The notes beneath the pieces are model-generated. The model was not told the DNA's origin. It worked only from the letters and a program-made list of their open reading frames with translations, and searched no databases. Below, piece after piece: positions 4,481-39,387 of a stretch of 40,962 nt of DNA. Source of the stretch: Kordiimonadaceae bacterium (lineage in GTDB: Bacteria; Pseudomonadota; Alphaproteobacteria; Sphingomonadales; Emcibacteraceae); assembly GCA_018675425.1 (NCBI GenBank), contig JABGYD010000023.1, positions 1-40,962 on the forward strand, in the 5' to 3' direction. Position numbers and translations under genes: made by a program. The stretch's first letter is position 1, and each line of letters begins with the position of its first letter.

Positions 4481-6598
4481 ATGGAATTTTTGCTAGCCAT
4501 TTATAATATTGCAGCCAGTATACTTAGTGAAACTGTTGGAATATTTTATGAGAGCTCAATATTTATTTTGATTGGATTATTATTTTCAGGGATCATGCAT
4601 GAATTTATCCCTATGAAACTGATTACTAAAAATCTGGGACAAAAGGGTATTAAAGGTATTTTCTGGGCTACCATACTCGGAGCACCACTACCACTTTGTT
4701 CATGTAGCGTGCTTCCTGCTGCTGCAACGCTCAGAAAAAAAGGAGCTTCAAAAGCTGCAACAGCTTCATTCATCGTTTCCGTACCTGAAACAGGTGTTGA
4801 TTCCGTGATCATTTCCTACGGCTTGCTTGGACCAGTCATGGCAATTTACCGTCCCATTGCAGCCATTGTGAGTGCTATCGCTGCCGGCCTTGCCTGTGCT
4901 TTTCTTACCCGCGATGAAAAAGATCAAGACCCACTTACCAATAACGATAAAAAACAACTTGAGGAATTAACGAAGCATCAGCATGGTCATTCCCATCATG
5001 ATCATGATCATGATGAACTTTCAGAGTCTAAAAATATAGGATTAAAGCAAAAAACAAAAGGTGTATTCGAATATGGTTTCGGCCCTATGCTGGATGACAT
5101 TGCTTTCTGGATTGTAGTTGGTCTAGTGATTACCGGTGTAATGTTAGCCCTAGTGCCAGATAATTTCTTTTTCTTCGGTGACAGTTTATTAGCTAGCATC
5201 CTCTCTATGTTGATAATGGTATTGATAAGTGTACCACTTTATACATGTGCCAGTATGTCCACACCCGTAGCTGCGGGTTTAATCGTTAGTGGTCTTTCAC
5301 CAGGAGCCGCACTTGTTTATCTTCTAACGGGACCCGCTACCAGCATTGCAACCATAAATATTGTTGGGAAAATGCTTGGCTACAGAGTGATGTGGGCGTA
5401 TTTGTTATCGATAATTATTGTGGCCATATGCTTTGGTTTAATGCTTGATTTCTTTGCCGCAGACATTGTCAGAGCAAGTGCCGTCGTTGCCCTAAACAGT
5501 GCGGACAGTACTTTCTGGATGATTGTGAAAACGGCTGCGGCAATTATATTCTCAGTTCATGTACTTTTCAGCTTCGGACGTAAAAGTTATCGCGCCCCTG
5601 TTCAGGACTTAAAAAACCAAGCTATCACCGTAGCTAACTTTTTAAAAACGCATCAAAGGAAACTGGTAAGCCCTAGCGCTTTAGCACTCGTTTTGGCACT
5701 TTACCCGTTTTATACTTTGCAAGTGCCACCAGGCAATCAGGGAATGATACTGAGGTTTGGTGAAATTATAGACAGGGATTTATCGCCCGGGTTTTATTTT
5801 AGACTGCCATCCCCCATCACAGAAACGGTAGTTATTGATACTGAAAATGTGCGGCAAATATCAATTGATGAAAGTTTGGGTGGTTTTACAACGGGTGGGG
5901 AACGAGTAAATTCGTATGAAAATTCAAACACATATTTGACAGCTGATGAAAACGTACTGTTAATTAAATCCGTAATTACATATGAAATTAATGATATCTA
6001 TAACTATCATTTCTTTAGTGAGAAAAATGAAAATCTTTTAATGGACATAGCACGACAGGTTCTAGTTTCAGAAACGGTTCAGCTTCCTATCGATGACGTT
6101 TTTACTATAGAACGAGGAAACCTTGAAGCCCGGTTTCGTGACCAACTAAAAAGTAGGGTTGATAAGCTCGAACAAGGGTTTAAGGTACTCGATGCTCGGC
6201 TAGTTTATGTGCATGCGCCAAACCGTGTACATGATGCATTTCGCGATGTTGCAAGCGCACTGGAGGATCTGCAACGAGAATTGTTTTTAGCCGACGGAGA
6301 TGCAATTTCGATGCTCAACGCAGCAAAAGGAAATTCAGAAACAATTAAAGCAACTGCAAGTGTAGTTGCGGCAAGGGAACTCGCATTTGCGAAAGGCCGG
6401 GCTGCCGCATTTAAACCGCTTTCTGAAGTTCATCAAGCCTATCCATATCTGACAGAAAAAAGACTGCAGATGGAGGCTCAGGAAAAATGGCTGATTTTAC
6501 CGACACTTTACCTCAACGGCTTAAAGAACTCTGACGGCGTTGATTTATGGCTAGACCCCAGTGCAGAAGACGTCGTCCGATTTAAATTTAAGGATTAA
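4481..6598 (+). CDS. Cu/Zn efflux permease (SO_0444/ArsP type) fused to an HflK-like SPFH domain
   Basis: A 705-residue fusion. Residues 1 to about 365 form a permease of the ArsP/DUF318 superfamily, close to SO_0444-type Cu/Zn exporters. It shows the paired-cysteine signature PLPLCSCSVLPAA (70-82), a second Cys256 in PLYTCASMSTP, about eight hydrophobic helices, and a cytoplasmic loop with seven histidines (166-177) likely to bind metal. After a linker and one more helix (about 398-413), residues 416-705 are an SPFH/band-7 domain of HflK type (PPGNQGMILRFG, then TADENVLL and DAFRDVASALEDLQRE). No frameshift or stop lies at the junction. The next SPFH gene begins 16 bases downstream, so the operon supplies three SPFH domains. 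Metal efflux organised by an SPFH scaffold is my inference. Confidence 0.85.
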   Translation: MEFLLAIYNIAASILSETVGIFYESSIFILIGLLFSGIMHEFIPMKLITKNLGQKGIKGIFWATILGAPLPLCSCSVLPAAATLRKKGASKAATASFIVSVPETGVDSVIISYGLLGPVMAIYRPIAAIVSAIAAGLACAFLTRDEKDQDPLTNNDKKQLEELTKHQHGHSHHDHDHDELSESKNIGLKQKTKGVFEYGFGPMLDDIAFWIVVGLVITGVMLALVPDNFFFFGDSLLASILSMLIMVLISVPLYTCASMSTPVAAGLIVSGLSPGAALVYLLTGPATSIATINIVGKMLGYRVMWAYLLSIIIVAICFGLMLDFFAADIVRASAVVALNSADSTFWMIVKTAAAIIFSVHVLFSFGRKSYRAPVQDLKNQAITVANFLKTHQRKLVSPSALALVLALYPFYTLQVPPGNQGMILRFGEIIDRDLSPGFYFRLPSPITETVVIDTENVRQISIDESLGGFTTGGERVNSYENSNTYLTADENVLLIKSVITYEINDIYNYHFFSEKNENLLMDIARQVLVSETVQLPIDDVFTIERGNLEARFRDQLKSRVDKLEQGFKVLDARLVYVHAPNRVHDAFRDVASALEDLQRELFLADGDAISMLNAAKGNSETIKATASVVAARELAFAKGRAAAFKPLSEVHQAYPYLTEKRLQMEAQEKWLILPTLYLNGLKNSDGVDLWLDPSAEDVVRFKFKD

Positions 6599-6614
6599 TG
6601 GAAAGATAGTTTAA

Positions 6615-7535
6615 ATGAACAAAAAAAGAACAATAATATTAATATCAGTTTTGATAGCATCTTATCTATCTACATCATTCTTTGTGGTAAATGAGGCGGA
6701 ATATAGCATTGTGACCCGCTTCGGAAGAACTATTGCCGTTCATGACGAACCCGGCTTAAATCTTAAACTTCCCATCCCATTTGAACGCGTTGTTCGCTTC
6801 GATAAAAGAAATATGTATCAAATTATACCGGAAGAAGAGTTTTTAACGTCGGATAAAAAGAACATTATTGTTTCGTCTTTTCTAACTTGGTACATTGTCG
6901 ATCCAGAGAAGTTTCTCACGTCGCTTAGAACCCGCGCCGCCGCAGAGGCCCGCATAGAAAATCTTGTAAAATCTCTATTTGGTGCTTCACTTGGTCAAAA
7001 ACCATTCACTGATTATATCCCAGCCGACATCAATCAAATAAATGACATTCAAGCGGCCGAAAATATTTCAGCAATGGAGCAAGAAATATTTACTGAAGCG
7101 TCGAACCTGGTGAGCCGCGACTACGGAATTAATCTTTCGAGCATAGGGGTATCAAAATTTAATTTTCCTGCTCAAAACCTGATTAGTGTATACGCTCGAA
7201 TGCGTGCAGAACGTGAACGGATTGCCAAATCATATCGGTCAGAAGGAGATGCTGAAGCAAAAAAAATTATTGCAGATGCTAGCAGACAGAGTGCAGAAAT
7301 TGTCGCGTCCGCAGAAGCAGAGGCAGAAATCGCACGTGGTAATGGTGAAGCTGAAGCGGCTCGTATATATGCGGAAGCATTTAAGGGCAAAGAAGAATTT
7401 TATGAATTCCTACGAACCCTTGATGTATATGGAAGTATTATTGATATGGATACAACAATAATTCTACCGGAAGATTCTCCGTTGCTAGAACTCCTTACCA
7501 ATCCGCCGCTCAAAAAAAAATCGGCGGTTAAGTGA
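6615..7535 (+). CDS. HflC-like SPFH/band-7 protein
   Basis: A 306-residue membrane-anchored SPFH protein most like HflC. One N-terminal helix (about 6-25) is followed by the SPFH domain (VNEAEYSIVTRFGRTI, then GLNLKLPIPFERV), a central EARIENLVKSLFG segment, the HflC-like RMRAERERIAKSYRSEGDAE stretch and an Ala/Glu-rich coiled coil to about residue 255. HflC normally pairs with HflK to cage FtsH. Here it sits 16 bases after the permease-HflK fusion, with a GGAAAG ribosome site, and its stop overlaps the next start. The natural partner is therefore the HflK domain on the transporter and/or the next gene. It may be a paralogue of a chromosomal hflC elsewhere, so I give no gene symbol. Confidence 0.9.
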   Translation: MNKKRTIILISVLIASYLSTSFFVVNEAEYSIVTRFGRTIAVHDEPGLNLKLPIPFERVVRFDKRNMYQIIPEEEFLTSDKKNIIVSSFLTWYIVDPEKFLTSLRTRAAAEARIENLVKSLFGASLGQKPFTDYIPADINQINDIQAAENISAMEQEIFTEASNLVSRDYGINLSSIGVSKFNFPAQNLISVYARMRAERERIAKSYRSEGDAEAKKIIADASRQSAEIVASAEAEAEIARGNGEAEAARIYAEAFKGKEEFYEFLRTLDVYGSIIDMDTTIILPEDSPLLELLTNPPLKKKSAVK

Positions 7536-8440
7536 TGATCAAGAAGATACTATATAGTTTAGGTGCACTTTTCATAACACTTTACGTCGCTTCCGGCTTT
7601 TACGCTGTAGAGCCTGAGGAGACAGCTGTCACTTACATCTTTGGCAAGATGATTGATAGAAATATCGAGGCGGGAATTCATTGGAATGTACCCTACCCAT
7701 TTGGCAGACAGACTGTTAAAAATACTAAGTCGAATTTATTTCTTTCCCTAGGTACTACAGCACCTTCACTGAGAAATTTTACTTTTAGTGGACGAAATTT
7801 ATGGATGACAGGAGGCGCAAGTTTAGTTGAAATTCAAATTGATATCCAGTACACGATTGCCCAACTGGATTTATATGAAACATCTCATGATAAGCCAGAG
7901 TTTTTCCTCGACTTTCTTGCACAAAAAATGCTAACCCGGTCGCTGATCGAACAAAGCGTCGATGATATTTTAACCACAGGCCGGCAACTTCTTGGAAGTC
8001 AAATCCAGTTGGCTATGCAAGCGGAACTTGACATTTCTAACATAGGAATTCAGATCCAGGATGTTATAGTTAAGTCACTCTCCCCGCCTAACAATGACGG
8101 TGTTGCTAACGCTTTTCAAACTGTTCAAAATGCCAATTCAGATCGATACAAGAGGCTTGAGGAGGCAGAGACAAGAAAAGATCAAATGTTATTTAATGCT
8201 GAAGCTGAGGCAAATAGAATTAGAAATGAGGGGCTTGCAGATCAATTCACCCGAATAGAAAAAGCCAGGGGTGATACTGTTCGCTTTGCTAGTTTGGCTG
8301 AGGAATGGCAAAAGTCCCCTGAAACAATGGAACGAAGAATTTATCTAGAAGAAATGTCGGAAATTTTAAACGGAGTAAAGGTTTATGTTGTGCCAGATAA
8401 AAGTAATCAAAATGATACAGTTCAAGTGATAGGTAATTGA
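7535..8440 (+). CDS. Second HflK-like SPFH/band-7 protein
   Basis: A 301-residue SPFH protein with an N-terminal helix (about 6-20), the domain entry VEPEETAVTYIFGKMIDRN and GIHWNVPYPFGRQ, and an HflK-like helix region (VANAFQTVQNANSDRYKRLE) leading into a coiled coil. I start it at ATG 7535, which overlaps the upstream TGA; a GTG at 7532 would add one residue. It differs from the SPFH domain of the fusion gene enough to be a separate lineage rather than a recent duplicate. Its place as third SPFH gene in the operon suggests a hetero-oligomeric scaffold of three subunits, one carrying the transporter. No protease or FtsH gene is nearby. Confidence 0.85.
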   Translation: MIKKILYSLGALFITLYVASGFYAVEPEETAVTYIFGKMIDRNIEAGIHWNVPYPFGRQTVKNTKSNLFLSLGTTAPSLRNFTFSGRNLWMTGGASLVEIQIDIQYTIAQLDLYETSHDKPEFFLDFLAQKMLTRSLIEQSVDDILTTGRQLLGSQIQLAMQAELDISNIGIQIQDVIVKSLSPPNNDGVANAFQTVQNANSDRYKRLEEAETRKDQMLFNAEAEANRIRNEGLADQFTRIEKARGDTVRFASLAEEWQKSPETMERRIYLEEMSEILNGVKVYVVPDKSNQNDTVQVIGN

Positions 8441-12913: not shown

Positions 12914-14065
12914 TTATTTTAAGGATGAGAACGCATTACTTAAGTCGTCTAACAAATCATCTTGATGCTCTAATCCTGTCTGAAAACGTATCATCGGAAG
13001 GGATGTGTTTTCCGGTTTGTATTTACGATTCTTATAGGGTTCGATCGGCATTACTAAGCTTTCGAAACCGCCCCAAGATGTTCCAATGGAAAATAAAGTG
13101 AGGCTATCCATAAAGTCATCTGCGGCAAAGCTCAACTTAAACTTAACGCTAAACATCCCATTGCAACCACTTGCATCACGTTTCCAAATTTCACTTCCTG
13201 GATGACTTGAAAGGCCAGGATGAAGGACTTCAACCACCTCATCTCTCATTAATAGCCAATTGGCTAAAGCAAGCCCGGTTTGTTCGTGGCGTTCTAAACG
13301 AAGGTTTAAAGTTCTCATGCCACGCAAACATGCATATGCTTCGTCAGGCGCAAGGATTTGACCCGTGTTATGTACCAATTGGCGCAGTGGTGCAGATATC
13401 TCTTGCCGTGAGGTGGCTATGCCCATCATTACGTCAGCGTGACCGCTAAGATATTTAGTACCCGCTATCACAGACACATCGCAACCGAATTCTAGTGGTC
13501 GGTAATACCATCCAGAGCCGTAGGTATTATCAGCAATGATGATTACGTTATGTTTTTTTGCATTTTTACAAAATTTTGACAAATCCATTATATCAAATGT
13601 ATTTGAGCCAGGTGTTTCTAAAATTACAACTTTCGTATTAGGCTTTACCCATTCATCAATATCAATTGCATCTGCTGAGAAATAATCAATTTCAACACCA
13701 TTCCTTCGAAGCTGGTTTTCACAATAGGTGCGCGTTGCAGGGAAAATGCTATCAACGATTAATACATGATCCCCGGAACTGGAATAAGCTGAAATTGCCC
13801 CGGCGAGTGCGGCTATTCCCGTTGGAAATAAAAAGCTAGCGTCTCCGCCTTCTAAATCACAAACGGCATTCGCAAGGGCATATGCAGTCGTCGTACCCCT
13901 TCGTCCGTAGGATAAGACAGTATCGTCCTTTTCCCTACGCTTATTGGTATCGCGAAAACTTGCCACAGTTTCATGCAATATAGTTGATGCTCTTACTACA
14001 GGTGGATTGGCAGGTCCTGGTTTTGGAGACCTCCCATAATGCATTAGCTTGGTTTCGCGTTTCAT
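12914..14065 (-). CDS. metC: Cystathionine beta-lyase-type PLP enzyme (Cys/Met metabolism family)
   Basis: A 383-residue fold-type I PLP enzyme of the Cys/Met-metabolism family. It would cleave cystathionine to homocysteine, pyruvate and ammonia, or act as a related C-S lyase. The Schiff-base lysine is K204 in AGTKYLSGHADVMMG, the PLP-pairing aspartate is D179 in IIADNTYGSG, and the phosphate-side SYGRRGTTT motif is at 52-60. The start follows AAAGGA. The region 225 bases downstream leads to ada, so cotranscription is uncertain. The TSWGGFESL motif near the C terminus is the form usual in MetC. Gamma-lyase activity cannot be excluded. Confidence 0.85.
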   Translation of the reverse strand: MKRETKLMHYGRSPKPGPANPPVVRASTILHETVASFRDTNKRREKDDTVLSYGRRGTTTAYALANAVCDLEGGDASFLFPTGIAALAGAISAYSSSGDHVLIVDSIFPATRTYCENQLRRNGVEIDYFSADAIDIDEWVKPNTKVVILETPGSNTFDIMDLSKFCKNAKKHNVIIIADNTYGSGWYYRPLEFGCDVSVIAGTKYLSGHADVMMGIATSRQEISAPLRQLVHNTGQILAPDEAYACLRGMRTLNLRLERHEQTGLALANWLLMRDEVVEVLHPGLSSHPGSEIWKRDASGCNGMFSVKFKLSFAADDFMDSLTLFSIGTSWGGFESLVMPIEPYKNRKYKPENTSLPMIRFQTGLEHQDDLLDDLSNAFSSLK

Positions 14066-14373
14066 TTATATTCCTTTAAAATTGTCCATACCAATGTGTA
14101 AATGTTAGAGATTAGCTAAATTCACAACGAATCTAGAGCCAACTTTACTATGCGTGATGTTAGCGTAACTCTAAATAGTAAGCAAAAAAAAATTATACTT
14201 CAACATTTTGTATAATATTTACGAATATAAAAATCGTTTAAATATAGTAATTTATAACTTTTTATATGTGTTATTTCAACACTATTTTTTAAAACTTCAA
14301 ATTATAGTATAAGTTTATTGACATGCTAATATGTCAACGATACCTTCATAAAATACTCAAAGAAGCGAGAAAC
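14066..14373. other. Divergent AT-rich intergenic region
   Basis: This 308-base region separates the minus-strand metC-like gene from the plus-strand regulator gene and is strongly AT-rich. It must contain both promoters; candidates such as TATAAT near 14211 exist, but no pair with a good spacer stands out. The one clear structure is the inverted repeat at 14318-14337. Confidence 0.5.
14318..14337. promoter_or_regulatory. Perfect inverted repeat, candidate operator of the YheO/DauR-type regulator
   Basis: TTGACAT (14318-14324) and ATGTCAA (14331-14337) form a perfect 7+7 dyad with a 6-base centre, 36 bases before the regulator start codon. A position in the leader of a regulator gene heading a transporter operon suggests autoregulation; which protein binds is an inference. 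Confidence 0.5.
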
Positions 14374-15033
14374 ATGAAAAGAACGAACATAATAGATATG
14401 TTAATTGCAACCGCTGATGGCCTTCAGCGGTCATTGGGTGACAGTTGTGAAGTAACCGTTCATGATCTAACAGATTTACGGTATTCTCTTGTGCATATAG
14501 CAGGAAATATAAGCGGCAGGAAGCTAGGCGCACCAATTACTGACCTGATATATAAGCGATTGGTTCAAGAAGATAATACTATAAGTGACAGCTCCGAAAA
14601 TTTATTCAATTACCGTAGTGCTACAAAAGATGGTCGAGTAACAAGAAATACCACTCTTTTTTACAGAAATGGAGATGGTAAAATTGTTGCCTGTATGAGT
14701 TTAACTTTTGATCTTACAAATTTGATTGTTGCAAAAGAAACACTTGAAGAAATTGTTGGTCTGGGCATGGATTTCTCTTCCCCAGCGGAAGAAAATCTAG
14801 CAAATAACTTTCACGAGACAATGGACTCTGTAATCTTGGAAATAATCGCAACTGTTGGTAAAGGAAAAGAACCAAATCAGCTAAATAAAAAAGAAAAAGT
14901 GAAAGTTGTTGAAATGCTCGAGTTGCGTAAAGTTTTTGAATTTAGAGGTGTGGTTTTACAGGTTGCTCGCATCCTCGATATGTCACGTCACACTGTGTAT
15001 AACTATTTAAAAGAAATCAGATCAGACAAATAA
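14374..15033 (+). CDS. YheO/DauR-family PAS-HTH transcriptional regulator
   Basis: A 219-residue regulator of the YheO/DauR type: an N-terminal PAS-like sensory domain (about 5-115, with SCEVTVHDLTDLRYSLVHIA and the central FYRNGDGKIVACMSLTFD) and a C-terminal helix-turn-helix (LQVARILDMSRHTVYNYLKE). I start at ATG 14374 because AGAAGCGAG lies just upstream. An ATG at 14323 would add 17 residues but falls inside the inverted repeat and lacks a ribosome site. It is the first gene of the cluster and lies 30 bases before tctC, so it probably controls the transporter and enzyme genes in response to their substrate. DauR itself responds to D-arginine catabolism; the ligand here is unknown. Confidence 0.85.
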   Translation: MKRTNIIDMLIATADGLQRSLGDSCEVTVHDLTDLRYSLVHIAGNISGRKLGAPITDLIYKRLVQEDNTISDSSENLFNYRSATKDGRVTRNTTLFYRNGDGKIVACMSLTFDLTNLIVAKETLEEIVGLGMDFSSPAEENLANNFHETMDSVILEIIATVGKGKEPNQLNKKEKVKVVEMLELRKVFEFRGVVLQVARILDMSRHTVYNYLKEIRSDK

Positions 15034-15063
15034 AACGTCAGAACCAGGAAAAGGAAAAATAGG

Positions 15064-16038
15064 ATGAATATAACCAGAAATACAGTCATTTTAGTCTTGG
15101 GGTTAATACTGGGCGCATGTGGCGAGAAGGATGTCAGCGTATCAAGTGATGATTTTGAAAGTTTTCCCACCAAAGAGTTAACCGTTATTGTTCCTTATTC
15201 ACCCGGTGGGGGCGTTGACACAACAGTAAGAATGCTTGCCGCAGTTGCTCCAAAGTATTTAAATGATAATAAAATAGTCGTGCGCAACATGCCTGGTGGC
15301 GGTGGCGTAATAGGTCAAACTGCTGGAGCAAAGACCGATGCAGATGGATATAATCTCCTTGCATTTTCCTCCTCAGTACTGTCAAATCCTTTCACAAAAA
15401 ACGCATCTTATAATCACTTATCTTTCGCACTGATTGGAATGTATGGCTATGATCCAGAAGTATTGATTGTCCCGGCGGGATCACCTCATAATTCTATCAA
15501 AGATTTTTTAGAAGCGGGAAAAGTTAAAAAAATTACAATTTCCACCTCCGGCCATTCAACATCCCATCATATAGCGAGTTTGGTTCTTTCCGAAAAAACG
15601 GACGTTGATTTTACATATTTGCACAACAAGGGCGCTGCAGAGCAAATTCAACAAATTTTGGGCGATCACGTAGACGCAACCATGATGGGTATTTCAGAAG
15701 CTAGTGAATATATCAAAAGCGGCTCTCTAAAAAGCTTAGGTATTATGACAGCAGAACGAGACGCGTCTTTTCCGGATTTACCAACATTTATTGAGCAAGG
15801 TATTGATATTGAATGGGGTGCGTTGAGAGGTCTTGCAGTGCCCGCCTCAACCCCCCTAGGCATTCAGCAGAAACTTGCCGAGGCATTTAGAGGTATCATT
15901 CAAGATCCTGAGAATGCTGAAAGAATGGCAATTGCAGGTTATCCAATTAGCTATAGATCGCCAGAAGAGTTTAGGGAATATGTAGTTTCAGTTGTTGATA
16001 ATTTAGAGCAAATATTACCAAGCCTTAAGGCACAGTAA
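15064..16038 (+). CDS. tctC: Tripartite tricarboxylate transporter substrate-binding lipoprotein (TctC/Bug family)
   Basis: A 324-residue extracytoplasmic solute receptor of the TctC/Bug family. The signal ends in a lipobox LGAC at residues 16-19, so the mature protein would be lipidated at C19. That is less common than a soluble Bug protein. Family motifs are PYSPGGGVDTTVRMLA and VVRNMPGGGGVIGQ, the two loops that grip a carboxylate of the ligand. It is followed 39 bases later by tctB and then tctA, completing a tripartite importer. The ligand should carry carboxylates; the enzymes downstream suggest a branched or N-linked di-/tricarboxylate. Confidence 0.92.
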   Translation: MNITRNTVILVLGLILGACGEKDVSVSSDDFESFPTKELTVIVPYSPGGGVDTTVRMLAAVAPKYLNDNKIVVRNMPGGGGVIGQTAGAKTDADGYNLLAFSSSVLSNPFTKNASYNHLSFALIGMYGYDPEVLIVPAGSPHNSIKDFLEAGKVKKITISTSGHSTSHHIASLVLSEKTDVDFTYLHNKGAAEQIQQILGDHVDATMMGISEASEYIKSGSLKSLGIMTAERDASFPDLPTFIEQGIDIEWGALRGLAVPASTPLGIQQKLAEAFRGIIQDPENAERMAIAGYPISYRSPEEFREYVVSVVDNLEQILPSLKAQ

Positions 16039-16077
16039 CAATATAATTTTGGCCAAACTTAATTTTAAGAAGAGGAC

Positions 16078-16518
16078 GTGATATTGAAAGCAGTACGATT
16101 AGATACTTATCTATCCATTGTATTATTGGTAGCAGGTACGTTGGTTTTTATGGAAGCTAAAAGCTTCCCTCAGACACCGGGCGAGTTTCCTGTTTGGATC
16201 AGTACGATATTAATTGGTTTATCGGCACTACTTTTTATTCAATCTGTTACAAATAGGCATGATGATAAAAAATTAGACATCAATAATAAAGTCCTTATTC
16301 AAATCGGAATTACTGCTGTAGCGATCGGCACATATATTATATTATTGCCCTACTTAGGATATATTATAGCATCATTTATATTGGTTTTATCTTTATCAAT
16401 TTTATTTGGGTACAGATCAATTAAATATCTTGCAATGACACCATTGGCTGCCGTTTTGCTATGCTGGGTCGTGTTCTTATTTATTTTAAACATTCCGTTG
16501 CCCGGCTTTGCTGAATAA
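16078..16518 (+). CDS. tctB: Tripartite tricarboxylate transporter small membrane subunit TctB
   Basis: A 146-residue membrane protein with four hydrophobic helices (about 12-25, 38-54, 75-93 and 97-140, the last covering two), matching TctB. An AGAGG element precedes the start. GTG at 16078 is very close to it, whereas TTG at 16084 has better spacing and would remove two residues, so the exact start is uncertain. The motif KSFPQTPGEFPVWISTILI (29-47) is characteristic of the family. It lies between tctC and tctA. Confidence 0.87.
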   Translation: MILKAVRLDTYLSIVLLVAGTLVFMEAKSFPQTPGEFPVWISTILIGLSALLFIQSVTNRHDDKKLDINNKVLIQIGITAVAIGTYIILLPYLGYIIASFILVLSLSILFGYRSIKYLAMTPLAAVLLCWVVFLFILNIPLPGFAE

Positions 16519-16530
16519 GGGAAACAAATT

Positions 16531-18033
16531 ATGGAAAATTTAATTTTAGCCTTTAGTCAGATCATGCTGCCTTCTGTGTTTATTTTTCTTTTTGCGGGCG
16601 TTTTAATTGGTCTCGTTGTTGGGTCTATTCCCGGTATTAACGATACTGTAACTTTGGCAGTACTTATTCCTATTTCTTTTACACTTGAGCCATCGAGTGC
16701 CTTGATGCTGCTAGTAGGTGTTTATTGTTCCGCCTGTTATGGTGGTTCTATTCCAGCAATTTTATTAAAAATTCCAGGAACTGCTTCTTCTGTTGTCACA
16801 TTGCTTGACGGATACCCAATGACCAAACGTGGGCAAGCCGGAAAGGCGCTTGGTATATCGACTATTAGTTCAGTTTTTGGTGGCCTTGCTAGCTCTCTCG
16901 TGTTGATGTTCTTCGCACCTGCACTTGCTATTTATGCTCTTAAATTTGGGCCAGCGGAATATTGTGCCTTGGCTATCCTTGGCTTTAGTACAGTGGCAGG
17001 CTTAAGTGGAAAAAATATAATTAAAAGCCTTATCGTTTGCGCACTAGGTCTATTTGTATCGACCATCGGCTTAAGCCCGCAAACTGGATTTCCACGATAT
17101 GATTTTGGCAGCGTTTGGCTTTATGAAGGTGTTCCCTTCGTACCAATGCTTATTGGATTATTCGGCGTTGCTAGCGTTTTCCACATGGTAGAGAAAATGG
17201 TTAAGCAACGTATTGAAGGCACAGAAGAGACCATTGTGCCAGAAGTCGGTCGTATATTGCCAAATTGGAAAATGGTAAAAAGACTGCTTCCTACATGGTG
17301 CACTTCAACAGCAATCGGAAACGTTATGGGGATCATCCCCGGTGCAGGCATGCTTATGGCAATTTACCTATCTTACGGTCAGGCCGTAAGAAGCAACAAG
17401 GACAAGGAATTTGGAACCGGTGTTCCAGAGGGAATTGCTGCACCTGAAGCCGCTAATAATGCAGTGGTCGCAAGTTCTATGGTTCCCCTATTGTCATTAG
17501 GAGTTCCAGGTAATGCGACGTCAGCATTATTTCTAGGTGCTCTTATGATCCAAGGGTTAAGACCTGGCCCAGCACTTTTTGAAAAGTCACCTGACATTGC
17601 GTACTTGATCATCGTTGGTTTTTTTGTTGCCAACTTAATTATGGGGCCATTAGGGTTATTGTTCGGTAAATTTTTATCCAGAACAGTTTTTAAAATACCC
17701 CAAGCATTCCTTGCGAGTATTGTTATTTTACTTTGCTGTACAGGTGCCTATGCCATTGATAATAGTTTGTTCAATATATGGGTAACATTAGCCTTTGGTA
17801 TTATCGGCTTTGGGTTTGATAAAGTTGGTTTGCCTCACGCGCCGTTTGTATTGGCAATCATACTTGGCGCAATGTTAGAAAGAGGGTTTTCTCAGGCACT
17901 CGCGATCTCAGATGGGTCGTATATGATATTCATCGAAAAACCTATTTCTTTGGGTTTGCTTATAGCATCGGCATGCTTTGTATTGTTCCCAATTATAAAA
18001 TTCCTACTAAATAAAACTCAAAAACAGCGATAA
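16531..18033 (+). CDS. tctA: Tripartite tricarboxylate transporter large permease TctA
   Basis: A 500-residue multi-pass permease of the TctA family. Family blocks are the early VGSIPGINDTVTLAVLIPIS, the NVMGIIPGAGMLMAIYLSYG block and the GIAAPEAANNAVVASSMVPL block, followed by SLGVPGNATSALFLGALMIQ. It has around twelve hydrophobic segments. It forms the cation-coupled channel with TctB, fed by TctC. It sits 12 bases after tctB and five bases before the MmgE/PrpD gene, so transporter and enzymes are one transcription unit. Confidence 0.93.
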   Translation: MENLILAFSQIMLPSVFIFLFAGVLIGLVVGSIPGINDTVTLAVLIPISFTLEPSSALMLLVGVYCSACYGGSIPAILLKIPGTASSVVTLLDGYPMTKRGQAGKALGISTISSVFGGLASSLVLMFFAPALAIYALKFGPAEYCALAILGFSTVAGLSGKNIIKSLIVCALGLFVSTIGLSPQTGFPRYDFGSVWLYEGVPFVPMLIGLFGVASVFHMVEKMVKQRIEGTEETIVPEVGRILPNWKMVKRLLPTWCTSTAIGNVMGIIPGAGMLMAIYLSYGQAVRSNKDKEFGTGVPEGIAAPEAANNAVVASSMVPLLSLGVPGNATSALFLGALMIQGLRPGPALFEKSPDIAYLIIVGFFVANLIMGPLGLLFGKFLSRTVFKIPQAFLASIVILLCCTGAYAIDNSLFNIWVTLAFGIIGFGFDKVGLPHAPFVLAIILGAMLERGFSQALAISDGSYMIFIEKPISLGLLIASACFVLFPIIKFLLNKTQKQR

Positions 18034-18038
18034 TAAAA

Positions 18039-19376
18039 ATGAACCAAAGTTACGCAGAAATACTAGCTCGTCATATTTTTGAGTTAAAATACGAACACCT
18101 ATCAAGCAGTACTATACAAAAAACTAAACAGTGCCTGCTGGATTATATAGGCGGAGTATTCCATGCTTCTAAATCAGATACTGCTATTAGCTATATAAAT
18201 TTAGCAAAAGAGTTGGGTGGTGATGGCACTGCAGAAATCTTAGGCAGTAAAGTTAAAACAACCGCCTCTTATGCAGCGTTTGCGAATGCGGCGCTTGGTC
18301 ATATTGCGGAGACCGATGACGGTCATCGAGCGTCTATTATGCATATAGGGACGGTTGTTTTTCCAGTTATTTTTGCTCTCAAATCAGAAACTCTAATTGA
18401 TGGTAAAGATATTATTGAAGCTGCCGTAGTCGGATATGAACTGGCAATACGCGTGGGCGAATGCCTTAACCAAAGTCATTATAATACATGGCATACAACC
18501 GCAACTGCGGGCACATTTGGTGCCGCTGCGGCTGCTGCAAAAATTTTAAAACTAACTGAAGAACAAACGGCATGGACACTTGCTCATGCTGGCACACAAA
18601 TGGCAGGCCTTTGGCAGTTTTTAGATGATAGTTGCTTAACTGCGAAAGTCTTACATCCAGCAAAAAGTGCCCAAAATGGCATAATTGCGGCGTTTACGGC
18701 AAAAGCAAATATTCCAGGCCCTTCACATATTTTTGAGGGCAAAAGAGGTGTCGCCAATGCATACAGCACAAATAGTGATTTATCTTATTTAATTAAAGAT
18801 TTGGGTAAAACATATAAAGTTGATGAAGCAAATTTCAAAGCATATCCAACCTGCGGTCAAACTCATTCAATGATAGATGCTCTGCGTAAAATTCAGGACG
18901 AGCACAACTTTGAACATAATGATGTTAAAAATATTAATGTCTTCGTTTATCAAAAAACTATTGATATCGCTAATATTGAAAACCCATCAACCGTTGCACA
19001 GGCCAAATTTAGTGTAAAATACTGCCTTGCTCTGTTGTTAGTGAAAGGGTCTATCAGCTTTACCAATATCGATGAAGAAACATTAACCAATCCGGACATC
19101 ACCACACTAATGCAAAAAATAAACGTGCTATTCGATGAAGACATCAATAAAGGTTTTCCCCGTTGTAGACCATGTAAGGTTACCCTTACGACTTCAAATA
19201 ATGAATATAAAGCGGAAAATTATTATCGCCGCGGGGACCCGGAAACACCAATGAGCCAGGGTGAAGTTGAAAATAAATTTCGCGAATTAACTAAGGGTTT
19301 TTTACCAAAATCCGACCAAGAAAAATATATTAAGTGGGTTGGCTTAATCGAAACCACAACCGAATGGCCACTCTAA
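18039..19376 (+). CDS. MmgE/PrpD family protein (first copy)
   Basis: A 445-residue MmgE/PrpD-family protein. The family includes 2-methylcitrate dehydratase, cis-aconitate decarboxylase and iminodisuccinate epimerase, all acting on polycarboxylates by proton abstraction next to a carboxylate. Family features seen are GHIAETDDGHRASIMHIGTV near residue 90, the helix block NTWHTTATAGTFGAAAAAAK, SAQNGIIAAFTA, and KAYPTCGQTHSMIDAL in the C-terminal half. It lies five bases after tctA and is followed by two lyases. The pairing of an MmgE/PrpD protein with a fumarase-superfamily lyase parallels bacterial iminodisuccinate breakdown, so an epimerase or dehydratase preparing the substrate for the lyase is a reasonable hypothesis. 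Confidence 0.88.
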   Translation: MNQSYAEILARHIFELKYEHLSSSTIQKTKQCLLDYIGGVFHASKSDTAISYINLAKELGGDGTAEILGSKVKTTASYAAFANAALGHIAETDDGHRASIMHIGTVVFPVIFALKSETLIDGKDIIEAAVVGYELAIRVGECLNQSHYNTWHTTATAGTFGAAAAAAKILKLTEEQTAWTLAHAGTQMAGLWQFLDDSCLTAKVLHPAKSAQNGIIAAFTAKANIPGPSHIFEGKRGVANAYSTNSDLSYLIKDLGKTYKVDEANFKAYPTCGQTHSMIDALRKIQDEHNFEHNDVKNINVFVYQKTIDIANIENPSTVAQAKFSVKYCLALLLVKGSISFTNIDEETLTNPDITTLMQKINVLFDEDINKGFPRCRPCKVTLTTSNNEYKAENYYRRGDPETPMSQGEVENKFRELTKGFLPKSDQEKYIKWVGLIETTTEWPL

Positions 19377-19405
19377 CCATCCTATAATTTATAAAGGAAT
19401 AATTG

Positions 19406-20785
19406 ATGACACATGTTATTGATAGTGAATTTTACAAACACGTATACGCTACTGACGAAATGCGTGACGTATTTGATCCCCAGAGGCGACTTCAACGCTG
19501 GCTTGATATCCAGGCGGCATTGACAACAGTGCAAGCGATAATGGGCCTTGTCCCAAAAGTAGACGCTGATAAAATAGTTAAATGCTGCGACTTGGGTCAA
19601 CTTAACTTTTCTCCTAAATCAAATGATTTCTGCGGCTCTGATCAACTTTTTTCATCTCTAATGAATGCTGTAAAAACAGAATGCGGGAACAGCGCTGCTG
19701 ATCATGTAAACCTTGATGCTTTTGCTCAAGACATTCAGGATACAGTGACGGTACTTGAGATAAAAGATGCTTACATGATCATGTTAAGAGATTTACTAAA
19801 AATCGAAAGCATACTAATTCCTTTGATTGAAAAGTATAAATCGCAACCAATGGCAGGCCGTACACATAAACAACACGGTCCACCTATTACCATAGGCTTT
19901 AAGTTTGCTGGTTTTGCGGCAGAAATTCGTCGGGAAATAGAACGCATGAAGGATATGCATAAACGTATTTTTTGTGGATCTTTGCATGGCGTTTCGGGCA
20001 CGATGCTTGAGGGTGGCGCAAAGGCATATGAAATGTATGAAGCATTGATGGACCAACTTGGACTTGATGTTGCACCTGCTGGACTTGGCTCAGCACGGGA
20101 TAACATCGGAGAATTTCAAGTGATCACTGGTATGATTGCAGGATCAGTCGGGCGTATCGTCAATGAAATTTACGAACTTAGTGGCTCTGAATTAAGTGAA
20201 CTTCACGAACCGCTGAGTAGGACTTATGTTGGATCAAGTGCGATGCCGCATAAAAGAAATGCGGAAGTTTGCGCGTTTGCTGTCGCGCAGTGTCGTATCG
20301 TACAACAAAACACTGCCCTTGGTTTGCAATCAATGACTGGCGAACATGAAAGAGATGCGCGCGCCCTTAATCTTGATTTGCATAATTTACCCGAAACATG
20401 TGTGATTATGGCTCGTGCTCTTGCAGCGACCATACAAACGTTGGACGGTATTGATGTTTTTGAAAAAAATATTACCCGAAACCTTGATGCCTTAGACGGC
20501 ATGCTCTTTTCAGAAGCTCTTATGTTTCATCTTGCCCCAAAAATTGGCAAGCAAACGGCACATGACATAATTCTTTTTGCATGTAAGGAAGCTCATGACA
20601 CTCAAACACCGATTAAAAATGTTTTGCTTGCTCACCCAGAGATTTTAAACGTCGCAACAGAAGCAGACTTTGATGAGGTTATGGTTTACGCCAAGCATAT
20701 TGGAAAATGTGTGGAGCAATCAGATGATGTTGTTAGGATTTCAAGAGAATTCAGCGTCAATGATCACTATTTTCTTCAAGCATAA
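19406..20785 (+). CDS. Fumarase/aspartase-superfamily lyase, subunit A (region 1 degenerate)
   Basis: A 459-residue lyase related to adenylosuccinate lyase and 3-carboxymuconate cycloisomerase. It keeps conserved region 2 as GRTHKQH (151-157) and region 3, the lyase signature GSSAMPHKRN (276-285), with the catalytic serine loop. Conserved region 1, normally H-Y-G-x-T/S-x-Q/T-D, has become NLDAFAQD (102-109) although the flanking QDIQDT is kept. ATG 19406 is chosen over TTG 19403 because AAAGGA is six bases upstream. It aligns with the next gene almost residue for residue over the first 275 positions, so the two arose by duplication. Likely forms a heteromer with it; see findings. Confidence 0.87.
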   Translation: MTHVIDSEFYKHVYATDEMRDVFDPQRRLQRWLDIQAALTTVQAIMGLVPKVDADKIVKCCDLGQLNFSPKSNDFCGSDQLFSSLMNAVKTECGNSAADHVNLDAFAQDIQDTVTVLEIKDAYMIMLRDLLKIESILIPLIEKYKSQPMAGRTHKQHGPPITIGFKFAGFAAEIRREIERMKDMHKRIFCGSLHGVSGTMLEGGAKAYEMYEALMDQLGLDVAPAGLGSARDNIGEFQVITGMIAGSVGRIVNEIYELSGSELSELHEPLSRTYVGSSAMPHKRNAEVCAFAVAQCRIVQQNTALGLQSMTGEHERDARALNLDLHNLPETCVIMARALAATIQTLDGIDVFEKNITRNLDALDGMLFSEALMFHLAPKIGKQTAHDIILFACKEAHDTQTPIKNVLLAHPEILNVATEADFDEVMVYAKHIGKCVEQSDDVVRISREFSVNDHYFLQA

Positions 20786-20814
20786 TTCAGATATTTAATA
20801 TTTAAGGAATACTA

Positions 20815-22182
20815 ATGGCTCACATACTTACCAATCCATATTATCAAAATATTTGGAGCACCGACGAGATGCGGGATGTTTTTACAGACCGTCACCGCTA
20901 TCAACGCTGGCTTGATGTGGAAGCAGCACTCGCGCGTGTACAAGCTAGACTTGGAATAATACCACAAGATGCAGCAGATGAGATTTGCAAAAAAGCACAC
21001 TTAGAACTTCTCGACGTAGAGGCTTTAAAAAAACATCTTGTTCAAGCGCAGCATACATTTGTCCCCCTTTTAAAGCAGCTTGAAAAAGCCTGTGACAATG
21101 GCGCGGGCGAATTTATCCATTATGGAACTGCAACCCAAGATATCCAAGACACAGCAACGTCGCTTGAACTGAAAGATGCCTTTAAAATCATTTTCCGAGA
21201 CATGGTCATTTTAGAAAAAAAATTAATCGAGATGGCGCAAAAACATAGTAGGCAACCCATGATCGGTCGATCAAACAATCAACATACCTTACCAATCACG
21301 GTCGGATTAAAAGCGGCCGGATGGGCGGCGGAAGTTCGTAGAAATATCGAACGCATGAAGGATATGAGAAAATATATTTTTGTTGGCCTTATTCACGGGA
21401 GTACCGGGACAATGAGCGGTCTTGGCGAGCGTGCTTACGAAGTCGTAGAAGGCGTTTTGGAAGAATTAGGCCTCGAAATGCCCGCTTGTGGTTGGACGGG
21501 GATCCGTGACAACTACGGACATTTTACTGTATTTCTTTCGCAAGCGGCAGCGACGATTAGCCGCATTACCAATGAGATTTACCAGCTTTCACGCTCTGAA
21601 ATTAACGAGTTTTCTGAACCAAACTCTAATCCTTCAGTAGGCGATAACAGAGCAAAGCATTCGATATCTGCTCAGGTAACTTCCATGTGTCGCATCGTTG
21701 TAAATAATGCTCCTCTAGCGTTACAGGCAATGATCGTGGAACACGAAAGAGACACACGAAGCTGGCGCTTAGATTGGCATCACATTCCTGAAAATAGCAT
21801 ATTGCTGAGCAAAGCCCTACTAGACACGATCTACCTAATCGATGGCTTGAAAATTAACGAACATAAGATCAAGAAAAATCTGAACCTTTTAAATGGTCAG
21901 GTTTTATCAGATATAATTGTATCTCGTTTGCAAAAAAATGCTGGTAGAAAACTTGCTGAAGATTTAGTAAATGAATGTTTATTGGATGCTAAAAATAGTA
22001 AGATAGCTTTTAATGAAATTCTTTCTTCAAATGAAGAAATTAAGAATTTTATGTCAAAGCAGGAAATCTCCAATTTATTCGACTATTCAAATTATACTGG
22101 ACAATCGGCACGTCAAATTGACGAAGTTATTAATCTGTCTAATTCTCAATCCGTAAATGATAGTTTATTTTTAACTTTCTAG
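20815..22182 (+). CDS. Fumarase/aspartase-superfamily lyase, subunit B (regions 2 and 3 degenerate)
   Basis: A 455-residue paralogue of the preceding lyase, 29 bases downstream with its own ribosome site (AAGGA). It keeps region 1 as HYGTATQD (102-109), but region 2 reads GRSNNQH (151-157), so the catalytic Thr-His pair is Ser-Asn. The region-3 signature GSSxMPxKxN is replaced and shortened by four residues (NSNPSVGDNRAKHSIS, 270-285). The protein is otherwise full length, ending FLTF where subunit A ends FLQA, with no stops or frameshifts, so it is under selection rather than decaying. On its own it should be inactive. Together with subunit A it could supply the missing region 1 in a mixed tetramer. 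Confidence 0.86.
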   Translation: MAHILTNPYYQNIWSTDEMRDVFTDRHRYQRWLDVEAALARVQARLGIIPQDAADEICKKAHLELLDVEALKKHLVQAQHTFVPLLKQLEKACDNGAGEFIHYGTATQDIQDTATSLELKDAFKIIFRDMVILEKKLIEMAQKHSRQPMIGRSNNQHTLPITVGLKAAGWAAEVRRNIERMKDMRKYIFVGLIHGSTGTMSGLGERAYEVVEGVLEELGLEMPACGWTGIRDNYGHFTVFLSQAAATISRITNEIYQLSRSEINEFSEPNSNPSVGDNRAKHSISAQVTSMCRIVVNNAPLALQAMIVEHERDTRSWRLDWHHIPENSILLSKALLDTIYLIDGLKINEHKIKKNLNLLNGQVLSDIIVSRLQKNAGRKLAEDLVNECLLDAKNSKIAFNEILSSNEEIKNFMSKQEISNLFDYSNYTGQSARQIDEVINLSNSQSVNDSLFLTF

Positions 22183-22209: not shown

Positions 22210-22284
22210 TGGTGCCGCTAGAGAGAATCGGACTCTCGGCCTCGTCATTACCAATGACGCGCTCTACCACTGAGCTATAGCGGC
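22210..22284 (-). tRNA. tRNA-Thr(GGT)
   Basis: A 75-base cloverleaf on the minus strand including an encoded CCA (22210-22212). The acceptor GCCGCTA/TAGCGGC, the T arm GAGAG/CTCTC and the anticodon stem GTCAT/ATGAC are intact; the loop TTGGTAA carries anticodon GGT (complement of 22250-22252). A run of T follows the CCA in the transcribed direction and may end the transcript. Confidence 0.96.
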
Positions 22285-33952: not shown

Positions 33953-35365
33953 CTATAATAATTGTGATAACTGGTTGATATCTTCCATTATGGAAATCTT
34001 TTTACCAGAATTTATTATTTTTTGGCACTGTTCTGGGCTAAAATGCCCTTTCGTAAGTTCAAAAAACTTATCCTCGATATCATCCCATGACATAGGACGC
34101 TGAGAAGAACCCATAGGATAATCAACACGTTTCACATATTTTTCACTACCGCTATAAATTTCTATTTGTGCAGGAAAACCTCCAGTTTGAATATGAAAGT
34201 CTGTCAATTCCTGATCAGCTATAATCTCTACCTTATCCATTAATTTAATAATTATTTGATCAAAAATCGCCGGTTCTTCAAAATCATGCATGGAGATATT
34301 GTCTTGTTTAACAACGGCTAATGCAACCGCATAAGGAAGACTAAAGCGTGCGGCCATATGATTTGATATTTTTCTTGTCGAGAGCGTTTTGGCACTATCT
34401 GCTTTTACGCGTACAATAATTTTATCTAAATCATCTGGCGATAGTTGCTTTTCTATACAAAGAATTGCAGCTGCATCCATTGCACTATGGACGCCATAAC
34501 AACACGCATATTTTTTTAATGATATTTTAACAATACTCGGCGTTCCTGAATTGGGCACGATGAGTGCTTGTCCATCACCATGACTATGGCTTGCAACAAT
34601 TCCCATTTCGCCCGTGACGACCCGCTCACTTGCTGTCATTCCCCGTTTAGCAAGATCCGCAGCATTAACCCCAAGCTGTGCGGCTTGCCCATTAACCCAA
34701 TCCTTATCCATACCAAAGGAGCCATTGGCCGGTGCCAATGATGGCATTAATCCATTTGGGGAACAAGCTCCGGCAATCCCCAGCGCATATAATACTTGTT
34801 CAACATCTACTTTAAGCAATTTTGCACAAGCCACCGCCGCCCCAAGCGGCCCTGCAAGGCTAGTTGTACGAAAACCCCTACCACCACTTCTATGTTTGCG
34901 ACCCACGGCTCTCAAAACGGCAATTGCAACCTCTAACCCCGCAGCAATCGCAGTGATTAAATCTGCACCACTACTCTTTTCTCGTTCTGCAACGGCGAAC
35001 GCTGCAGGAATAATAGTAACCCCTAAATGTCCATTATTACGGGGATCAACAACAACATCTTGATAATCAAGAATTTCTGCCCATGTCCCATTACAAAGCG
35101 CGGCAGTGTTTGCCGGCATTTTACCGCGCCCCGACCATAATGATGAACCCGTATCACTTTTATTATATTCCAGATTAAAATCTTCGTTAATCTTCCCCGA
35201 TTGATGATTTCTATTATAGGCACCAATTGAAATAATAATCACATCAAAAATCATTTTTGAAATATGATGTCGCGCTTTTTCATCTATGTCTGAAAACGAA
35301 AGATCATGTGCATATTTCGCCAATGCCCACTCTGGAGCAGAATTATCAATCATATTATCAGCCAT
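33953..35365 (-). CDS. MmgE/PrpD family protein (second copy)
   Basis: A 470-residue MmgE/PrpD protein, only distantly similar to the copy at 18039. Family blocks are WAEILDYQDVVVDPRNNGHL, the Ala/Gly-rich helix GPLGAAVACAKLLKVD, ANGSFGMDKDWVNGQAAQLG and a CCYGVHSAMDAA segment equivalent to the usual YPxCxxxHxxxDA. It starts three bases after the ABC ATPase stop, so it is the last gene of the amino-acid transporter operon. That position suggests it acts on the imported compound, as a dehydratase, epimerase or decarboxylase of an amino- or polycarboxylate; the reaction is not known. Confidence 0.87.
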   Translation of the reverse strand: MADNMIDNSAPEWALAKYAHDLSFSDIDEKARHHISKMIFDVIIISIGAYNRNHQSGKINEDFNLEYNKSDTGSSLWSGRGKMPANTAALCNGTWAEILDYQDVVVDPRNNGHLGVTIIPAAFAVAEREKSSGADLITAIAAGLEVAIAVLRAVGRKHRSGGRGFRTTSLAGPLGAAVACAKLLKVDVEQVLYALGIAGACSPNGLMPSLAPANGSFGMDKDWVNGQAAQLGVNAADLAKRGMTASERVVTGEMGIVASHSHGDGQALIVPNSGTPSIVKISLKKYACCYGVHSAMDAAAILCIEKQLSPDDLDKIIVRVKADSAKTLSTRKISNHMAARFSLPYAVALAVVKQDNISMHDFEEPAIFDQIIIKLMDKVEIIADQELTDFHIQTGGFPAQIEIYSGSEKYVKRVDYPMGSSQRPMSWDDIEDKFFELTKGHFSPEQCQKIINSGKKISIMEDINQLSQLL

Positions 35366-35368
35366 TTT

Positions 35369-36136
35369 TTACATACTCATCCTCTTGAGGAAGGATTGTA
35401 AACGCTCAGATTTAGGATGACTGAAAAATTCCTGTGCCGACGCTTGCTCGACAATTACACCCTCATCAATAAAAATTGCTCTATCCGCTGTATCTCTCCC
35501 AAAATTAAGCTCATGCGTCGCTATAATCATTGTATGTCCCTTCTCGGCCAATTCTTTCATCACCTCAATGACTTCCCCGACACGTTCAGGGTCAAGAGCT
35601 GATGTCGGCTCGTCAAAAAGCATCACTTCGGGCTCCATAGCAAGCATTCGGGCAATGGCCACTCTTTGCTGCTGCCCACCTGATAAAGTGTCTGGGTATT
35701 CATCCTTCCAATCCAATAGGCCGACTTCCGTAATTCTATCAATCGCTATTTTTTCAGCATCCGCATTATTCATCTTCTTTACAATTTTTAGAGCTTCAAT
35801 CACATTACCCAATACGGTACGGTGAGGCCATAAATTAAATTGTTGAAATACATATCCGATGCGGCTTCTTTGGCTAGCAAGCGTCGTTTGGTTTGCTTTT
35901 TTCAATTCCCCGGTCTCTGACAATAAATTGCCAATAGGATCACCATTAATATAAACCGTTCCTTCATCAGGAATGCTAAGTTGGTTTATACATCTCAACA
36001 GGGTGGATTTACCGGAACCAGAAGCTCCTAGAATGCAAACCACCTCGCCCTGCGCGACATCCAAATCGATCCCTCTTAATACTTTTAGGCTCCCAAATGA
36101 TTTATGCAAATTTTTAATTTTAACGGCAGAAGTCAT
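35369..36136 (-). CDS. Amino-acid ABC transporter ATP-binding protein (GlnQ/HisP type)
   Basis: A 255-residue ABC ATPase of the polar-amino-acid class. Walker A is GASGSGKST (37-45), the Q-loop is YVFQQFNLWPH, the signature is LSGGQQQRVAIAR, Walker B is VMLFDEPTSALD, and the H-loop follows in IIATHE. The class marker is the GlnQ/HisP-like start KIKNLHKSFGSLKVLRGI. It lies two bases after the permease gene and three before the MmgE/PrpD gene. With a single permease gene in the operon, the importer is expected to be a permease homodimer with two copies of this subunit. Confidence 0.95.
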   Translation of the reverse strand: MTSAVKIKNLHKSFGSLKVLRGIDLDVAQGEVVCILGASGSGKSTLLRCINQLSIPDEGTVYINGDPIGNLLSETGELKKANQTTLASQRSRIGYVFQQFNLWPHRTVLGNVIEALKIVKKMNNADAEKIAIDRITEVGLLDWKDEYPDTLSGGQQQRVAIARMLAMEPEVMLFDEPTSALDPERVGEVIEVMKELAEKGHTMIIATHELNFGRDTADRAIFIDEGVIVEQASAQEFFSHPKSERLQSFLKRMSM

Positions 36137-36138
36137 AA

Positions 36139-36882
36139 TTATAAATTCCCCTGCGGTTTTATCTGAAAAGATGTCTTACTAATTTGTTTAAATTTTTGCC
36201 AAAATGGAACTTTTTTTCGCCTTATCCATGCGAATTTCCATTCAAGATACATCATAAATAATGACGTCGTGTAAGCCATAATTAAATAAATAACTGCAAC
36301 AACAGTGAAAACTTCAATCGGTCTAAAGAAATTAGCAATAATGATTTGCCCCTGATACATCAATTCGGCCATACCGAGTACAGAGCAAAGCGATGATAAC
36401 TTAATTGCAGAAACAAAAACATTTCCAATTGCAGGTATCATTCGGTAAGCAGCTTGAGGAACAATCACACGGCGTATTATTTGGCCGGGTTTAAAACCTA
36501 CTGCTGCAGCGGCTTCAATATGTCCTTTACTAACACCCTGAATGCCTGCACGAAATACTTCAGAGAGATATGATCCAACATTTAACGCCATCGCAATCAC
36601 CAGCGATGTAAGCGCATCCAATTGAAGTCCCGTTAAAATTGGTAAACAATAATAAATCCAGACTATTTGTATAAGACCGGGTGTTCCCCTAAAAACTTCG
36701 ACATAAACGACCAAGGGAAGAGCAAATATCTTACGTACTCTAAGCCTAACAATAGCAACAAAAAGTCCAATAATTGTGCCAAGAACCATTGTCAAAAGTG
36801 ATAGTAGAATAGTTGTTTGAACGCCTTCTAATAAAAGCGGTAAATTATTCCAGACAATATCAAAGCGAAATTCAAATTCCAT
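36139..36882 (-). CDS. Amino-acid ABC transporter permease (HisM/GlnP type)
   Basis: A 247-residue inner-membrane permease with five hydrophobic helices. The N-terminal GVQTTILLSLLTMVLGTIIG is characteristic of the polar-amino-acid permeases, and the EAA loop contacting the ATPase is seen as EAAAAVGFKPGQIIRRVIVP. VFRGTPGLIQIVWIYY is the other family marker. It lies between the binding protein (34 bases upstream) and the ATPase. Confidence 0.94.
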   Translation of the reverse strand: MEFEFRFDIVWNNLPLLLEGVQTTILLSLLTMVLGTIIGLFVAIVRLRVRKIFALPLVVYVEVFRGTPGLIQIVWIYYCLPILTGLQLDALTSLVIAMALNVGSYLSEVFRAGIQGVSKGHIEAAAAVGFKPGQIIRRVIVPQAAYRMIPAIGNVFVSAIKLSSLCSVLGMAELMYQGQIIIANFFRPIEVFTVVAVIYLIMAYTTSLFMMYLEWKFAWIRRKKVPFWQKFKQISKTSFQIKPQGNL

Positions 36883-36916
36883 ATTTATTGCTCACACAAT
36901 TTTTCCTGTTTTGATC

Positions 36917-37777: not shown

Positions 37778-38004
37778 TCGACAATTCCCTTACTGAAAAA
37801 TCTTGAAAATAGGTTCTAACATATCAGTCATCATTGCAAGAAATTTTAGGAAATACTATTTCTTATTCGCCTTTATTTAGCTTCCAAAGCCACCCTAAAA
37901 TACACATCAGCTTTTTTTCTCTAGCTTTTTTTAAATTAATTCTGGGATATCGACCTATACATTTCAATTAAAATTACTTACAGTTGCTTATAGGTAAAAA
38001 TTTA

Positions 38005-39369: not shown

Positions 39370-39387
39370 TCCACGTCAAAATGAACT

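Follow-up and report, generated by a model that had tools for sequence, protein, structure and literature searches.

Reciprocal motif losses in a tandem pair of fumarase-superfamily lyases point to a candidate obligate heterotetramer

The stretch of DNA analysed here (the window) comprises positions 1 to 40,962 of contig JABGYD010000023.1 from a Kordiimonadaceae bacterium (assembly GCA_018675425.1), and carries two adjacent genes for lyases of the fumarase/aspartase superfamily, which we call A and B, at the 3' end of a co-directional gene run (14323-22182). Lyase A (19406-20785, + strand; ATG at 19406, stop at 20785) encodes 459 amino acids (aa) and lyase B (20815-22182, + strand; ATG at 20815, stop at 22182) encodes 455 aa; they are separated by 29 bp, in which a Shine-Dalgarno-like TAAGGAA can be read upstream of B (20803-20809, +). 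Both proteins score above the Pfam cut-offs for the Lyase_1 and ADSL_C domains. An earlier, sequence-only reading of this DNA had described two intact frames aligning residue for residue over their first 275 positions; the frames are indeed open throughout, and the alignment (39% identity) runs without a gap for the first 288 columns.

We compared A and B with a panel of 36 rows, made up of 33 homologues plus loci L058, L062 and L064 added afterwards; excluded were L042 (fragmented frames), tblastn matches shorter than 300 aa and duplicate loci of the A/B pair, and the ArgH-like L001 and L003 of the same genome gave no tblastn match. The panel is near-invariant in region 1 (His 35/36, Gly 36/36, Thr 36/36) and in region 3, where the first Ser, the Lys, the Asn and the following Pro are each present in 36/36. 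Against this background region 1 of A is degenerate, reading NLDAFAQD (residues 102-109; 19709-19732, +) with Asn102, Asp104, Phe106 and Ala107, while region 2 (GRTHKQH, residues 151-157; 19856-19876, +) and region 3 (GSSAMPHKRN, residues 276-285; 20231-20260, +) are intact, just as first read. The panel comparison adds a loss absent from that reading: the N-terminal Glu at position 36 (35/36 of the panel) is Gln36 in A (19511-19513, +) and is kept as Glu36 in B (20920-20922, +). Region 1 of B, HYGTATQD (residues 102-109; 21118-21141, +), had been taken as preserved, and this stands for His102, Gly104, Thr107 and Asp109 but not for the invariant Thr, which is Ala106. The superfamily motif HxGxT[ST]QD is incomplete in both proteins, A lacking the His and the Thr (and in the window the Gly too), and B lacking the Thr only.

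The region-3 loop GSSxMPxKxN, present in A, is missing from B, as originally noted: at its place B has the remnant VGDNRAKHSISAQV (residues 275-288; 21637-21678, +), followed by a gap of four residues. We rejected compensating frameshifts as the cause, since the other two frames of this stretch, read by eye, showed no hidden GSSxMPxKxN, and since the gap is common to a congener. Region 2 of B, GRSNNQH (residues 151-157; 21265-21285, +), fares differently. It had been counted as a defect, and we discarded it as evidence of damage: the Asn also occurs in panel homologues whose regions 1 and 3 are intact (GRSN in L043, GRTN in L032) and in the trans-aconitate decarboxylase Tad1 (RSN). The B region-2 change therefore carries no weight, and region 1 of B is itself imperfect.

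The congener, G023, has the same operon in the same gene order, on two contigs that break within the transporter gene TctA. Its A carries the same Glu-to-Gln and His-to-Asn substitutions, and its region 1 reads NSGVCSQD, keeping Gly104 and Ser107 and lacking the Thr; its B has the same loop gap. Region 1 is thus fully degenerate in the window's A but not in that of the congener. A homologous pair had been named in advance as a place where the reciprocal pattern could fail, and the sole other pair found shows it, with A altered at the His and the Glu and B without region 3. The one-sidedness can be put in numbers: 83 columns are conserved in at least 85% of the panel, and we counted those that just one of the two proteins has lost. 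When a loss seen in either species is counted, the N-terminus and region 1 give six for A and none for B, and region 3 gives none for A and seven for B (Fisher p 0.0006); when the loss must be common to both species, the figures are 4 to 0 against 0 to 7 (Fisher p 0.003). Outside the motifs, one-protein losses are not one-sided (six in A, five in B). Position 279 is altered in both.

Both genes are under purifying selection. Between the window and the congener, the nonsynonymous and synonymous divergences (dN/dS) are 0.042/0.524 for A (ratio 0.08) and 0.042/0.450 for B (0.09), beside 0.065/0.682 (0.095) over 336 codons for the neighbouring PrpD gene, and on the ratios of A and B we ruled out pseudogenes. 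Within this constraint, the lost motifs of A and B, pooled, differ between the species at 14/27 residues and their intact counterparts at 2/31 (Fisher p 0.0002), in windows picked after the motifs were seen. The intact parts are quiet: none of the residues around region 2 (0/21, residues 145-165) or region 3 (0/17, residues 274-290) of A differs, nor any around region 1 (0/16, residues 98-113) or region 2 (0/22, residues 147-168) of B, and B is unchanged over the whole of residues 70-127 (0/58). Around the lost region 3 of B, by comparison, 9/19 residues (270-288) differ, and this is the densest 15-residue window of change in the protein, a density matched in one of 5000 permutations; A differs at every residue from 103 to 107, and its densest six-residue windows begin at 102 and 103 (26/5000 permutations). 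The C-terminus of B (residues 401-455; 22015-22179, +) is also changeable, differing from the congener at 11/55 residues, above its share.

What such losses would cost can be gauged from mutants of ScCreD, assayed by the hydronitration of fumarate, in one report (PMC13411527). There, S302A, K308A and N310A are dead, H118N, E49Q and T122A retain 0.2%, 2% and 5% of activity, the double mutant T122A_S123A is inactive, and H118N also impairs assembly. We matched CreD residues by spacing and not by alignment, placing His118, Thr122, Ser123 and Asp125 in region 1, and Ser302, Lys308, Asn310, Arg341 and His253 around region 3; Glu49 is a probable match only for residue 36. On this matching, H118N and, probably, E49Q are the very substitutions of A in both species, and S302, K308 and N310 belong to the loop missing from B; the equivalents of T122 and S123 are both gone in the window's A, and are Cys and Ser in that of the congener. 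Judged by analogy with these mutants, which show how little the site tolerates, the losses in A and B would each be fatal or nearly so, and the assembly defect of H118N suggests that a tetramer of A only may be unstable too.

Neither protein qualifies for a lyase family as NCBIfam defines it: among the families listed, no lyase cut-off is reached by A or B. Adenylosuccinate lyase PurB was rejected on TIGR00928 scores of 218.1 (A) and 246.8 (B) bits against a cut-off of 326.2, and the genome has its own PurB elsewhere, at 502.5 bits. The same holds for 3-carboxy-cis,cis-muconate cycloisomerase (CMLE; TIGR02426, 176.7 and 215.7 bits against 355.75), and for nitrosuccinate lyase (NF052556, 168.3 and 214.1 bits against 650), whose D125/H253 fingerprint is not matched: we paired H253 with position 228 because both lie 49 residues from the first loop Ser, and this position holds Gly in A and Thr in B. 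The 3-sulfopropionylcysteine synthase XcbD (NF052536) reaches 351.5 (A) and 374.4 (B) bits against 600, and XcbD and PRK08937 are the top two profiles for each protein. Besides PurB, the genome encodes an ArgH above its cut-off, as well as one ArgH-like and one CMLE-like protein below theirs. By sequence, the nearest solved relatives are 3c8t, Tad1, CMLE and PurB; the closest of these, CMLE, Tad1 and 3c8t (PurB-like fumarate lyases), are each a single gene product, and those aligned retain both motifs, unlike A and B. Among the panel additions, the XcbD-like lyase of plasmid pNOCA01 (L064, 6781-8133) has a region 1 of its own kind, YYGATVQD, with Tyr for the near-invariant His, and retains its loop as GSITMPHKVN.

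A and B are sisters with a support of 100/100, which stays at 100 when the motif columns are excluded, and this relationship points to a single lyase gene that was duplicated and then split into the two. Two loci with one lyase each are of interest here. The first is L042 (NZ_CP069439.1, 1201-16519), a plasmid record labelled E. coli, which near one end holds a related pyridoxal-phosphate (PLP) enzyme, one lyase and an MmgE/PrpD protein in fragmented frames; across separate frames the lyase reads HFGPTTQD, GRTLALQ and GSSTMPHKRN, motifs that would be as expected for the unsplit state. This stretch may be foreign or chimeric. The second is in Cupriavidus, where one lyase with all motifs lies near TctC and PrpD homologues.

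In the fumarase/aspartase superfamily each active site is built from parts of three subunits. We propose, with good though not full confidence, that A and B together form a single lyase of the CMLE/PurB-like branch, an obligate heterotetramer to which each contributes one kind of subunit. A gene duplication within the operon would have come before the split; A would then have lost key residues of a region-1 donor, namely Glu36 and His102 plus, in the window's copy, Gly104 and the Thr/Ser of position 107, and B the part of a region-3 donor, that is, the Ser-Ser loop with its Lys and Asn. In an A2B2 tetramer of D2 symmetry, region 1 would be supplied by B and region 3 by A, giving two complete and two blank sites, and a homotetramer of either protein would have no complete site at all. 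The sequence-only reading had suggested that a mixed tetramer could assemble complete sites that neither protein has alone, and enumeration of the D2 arrangements, which assumes that B can supply region 1 and A region 3, bears this out on paper: A4 and B4 would each have no complete site, A3B1 would have one, and A1B3 none (or one, if region 2 of B is usable). Since sites are shared between three subunits, A2B2 could carry two, either when like subunits are related by the axis joining the region-2 and region-3 donors, or, if region 2 of B is usable, when they are related by the axis joining the region-1 and region-2 donors; the third arrangement would have none. By this enumeration, two complete sites are possible in mixed tetramers only.

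An obligate heteromer is the simplest reading of these data, in which we infer co-assembly, stoichiometry, activity and substrate alike. As far as sequence can speak to it, the idea of a heteromer arising by complementary loss is supported, because the second pair is reciprocal, both genes are under selection, and change is concentrated in the damaged motifs. Several observations nonetheless weigh against it. Each paralogue lacks conserved site residues kept by the other, except that Thr106 and Pro286 after the loop, each present in 36/36 of the panel, are gone from both; neither has the His at 228 (28/36 of the panel), A carrying Gly and B Thr there, and A has Ala for the Glu found five residues past the loop (28/36). 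The composite A/B site would not be canonical. The congener's A, with Gly104 and Ser107, has a less damaged region 1, and the pair is known from two species only. The N-terminus of A is fast throughout (23/109 residues), so the signal at its region 1 is weaker than that at region 3 of B; nor is it sharp, as the 15-residue maximum is tied across several windows (358/5000 permutations) and the 20-residue maximum sits at residue 34 (29/5000). Finally, AlphaFold2 monomer models, built from four sequences each, were too poor for use (mean predicted local distance difference test scores of 55.8 for A and 60.6 for B).

Perhaps the working enzyme is a homotetramer of A whose carboxylate pocket has changed, in a complex in which B stabilises or regulates it and no sites are shared. 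We consider this unlikely, though it is the strongest of the alternatives: in its favour, the catalytic loop and region 2 are both present in A, the congener's A has Gly104 and Ser107, and inactive paralogues that activate weak enzymes are known (PMC3663545). However, B retains exactly the Glu36, His102 and Gly104 that A is missing and is unchanged between the species over residues 70-127, a conservation that a structural role would not call for, and the H118N mutant of CreD (PMC13411527) has 0.2% activity and assembles poorly. A somewhat more doubtful idea is that A and B are separate enzymes for successive steps, as XcbC and XcbD are in the coenzyme M cluster. Gene clusters that hold two superfamily lyases do exist, and the coenzyme M cluster resembles the A/B locus in this respect. 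Yet XcbC and XcbD are not operon sisters with complementary losses, as A and B are, and the XcbC-like and XcbD-like proteins examined retain an SxxMPxK-type loop, which B does not have and whose mutants are dead in the CreD data (PMC13411527). Least probable by far is that decay is under way in one or both genes, or that the pattern comes from an assembly error: motif loss is how decay would be expected to look, but open frames and the same loop gap recur in two separately assembled species, the dN/dS ratios compare with that of PrpD, and the intact counterparts are unchanged or nearly so. The observations thus contradict decay, assembly error and membership of a known family that has both motifs.

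The distribution of the pair is narrow. In 32 genomes of the family (E-values up to 1e-60) and 296 of the order (up to 1e-90), a match to B occurs only in the window's genome and in the congener; the family, order, class and phylum samples overlap. In the class sample, 29/385 genomes, the window's included, match B at 1e-60, with no second tandem pair among the matches listed, and a query with A at 1e-30 (201/385 genomes with a match) gave no other tandem pair among the matches listed either, at most four candidates being scored per genome. In the phylum sample, B has a match in 3/398 genomes at 1e-75, including the window's and one match in each of the other two; no second lyase was seen near that of G966, the one of the two whose surroundings were viewed. 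A scan of genome contigs with two peptide patterns returned the congener's locus only, which leaves room for more distant pairs, and close-peptide scans of viral contigs found no relative.

The operon is a sporadic unit adjoining a tRNA-Thr(GGT) gene (22210-22284, - strand) that lies directly past its end. This follows from four congeners (G020, G024, G028 and G030) that have the flanking tRNA-Thr, dcd, murA and hisG with no operon gene in the stretch taken, and from a PLP gene whose orthologue (92%) is found in G023 alone, beside the same operon; the best matches in other congeners are 39 to 42% in ten and at most 29% in G030, a half-complete genome. At the threshold used, dcd itself was found in 10/13 congeners. 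This PLP gene (12914-14065, -), for a cystathionine beta-lyase-like enzyme above the TIGR01324 cut-off, is divergent to the operon, which begins with a YheO-like PAS/helix-turn-helix regulator (14323-15033, +; PF08348, PF13309) and continues with TctC, a transporter receptor (15064-16038, +; PF03401), TctB (16078-16518, +; PF07331), TctA (16531-18033, +; PF01970), and an MmgE/PrpD-family protein (18039-19376, +; PF03972, PF19305) immediately upstream of A. A second MmgE/PrpD protein lies in 33953-40692, with neighbours that we named by reading their sequences where transporters are concerned: an amino-acid-type ATP-binding cassette transporter, a transporter-like gene, and a Rieske oxygenase with a LigXa-like C-terminus. 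Elsewhere in the window (4481-8440, +), one frame of 705 aa joins an ArsP_1-like permease to an SPFH/Band 7 domain, and two more SPFH proteins come after it.

Because TctCBA, an MmgE/PrpD protein and a CMLE-like lyase stand together, a substituted succinate or a tricarboxylate is the probable substrate; TctCBA would take it up, and the lyase, acting alongside the MmgE/PrpD protein, would cleave it. Iminodisuccinate epimerase is an MmgE/PrpD protein that acts beside such a lyase. The adjacent PLP enzyme offers a lead, as it would fit a sulfur- or amino-substituted substrate. Since Thr106 and His228 are gone from both proteins, the composite site may have moved off the canonical pocket, and with it off the canonical substrate.

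In the open-access literature searched, we recognised no natural heteromeric lyase of the fumarase/aspartase superfamily. It is somewhat likelier than otherwise, in our estimation, that A and B would be the first natural case of a fumarase-superfamily site split between two genes and fixed in that state, an A2B2 enzyme in which one or two of the three arrangements would work and the blank sites would be free to evolve, perhaps into binding or regulatory sites. The closest precedent within the superfamily is human argininosuccinate lyase, with its subunit-shared sites, in which intragenic complementation lets differently damaged chains form intact shared sites; there, however, the chains come from patient alleles of one gene, and here from two fixed genes. 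Such complementation appears in titles cited by PMC2779060 and PMC4701392. A second parallel is the deoxyhypusine synthase of trypanosomatids (DHSc/DHSp; PMC7581365, PMC3663545), also a pair of paralogues with residues lost from one or both copies, whose heterotetramer has two sites that work and two that are dead, as we propose for A2B2. Its fold and reaction are unrelated, and the complex is demonstrated there, whereas for A and B we infer it.

If this reading is true, duplication followed by complementary losses would here have made an obligate heteromer out of a homotetramer, with symmetry dictating which arrangements can work, and the question of how heteromers evolve would be directly testable with two soluble bacterial proteins. 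Complementation between subunits of this superfamily is a classic theme of human genetics, and A and B would be its natural, fixed case.

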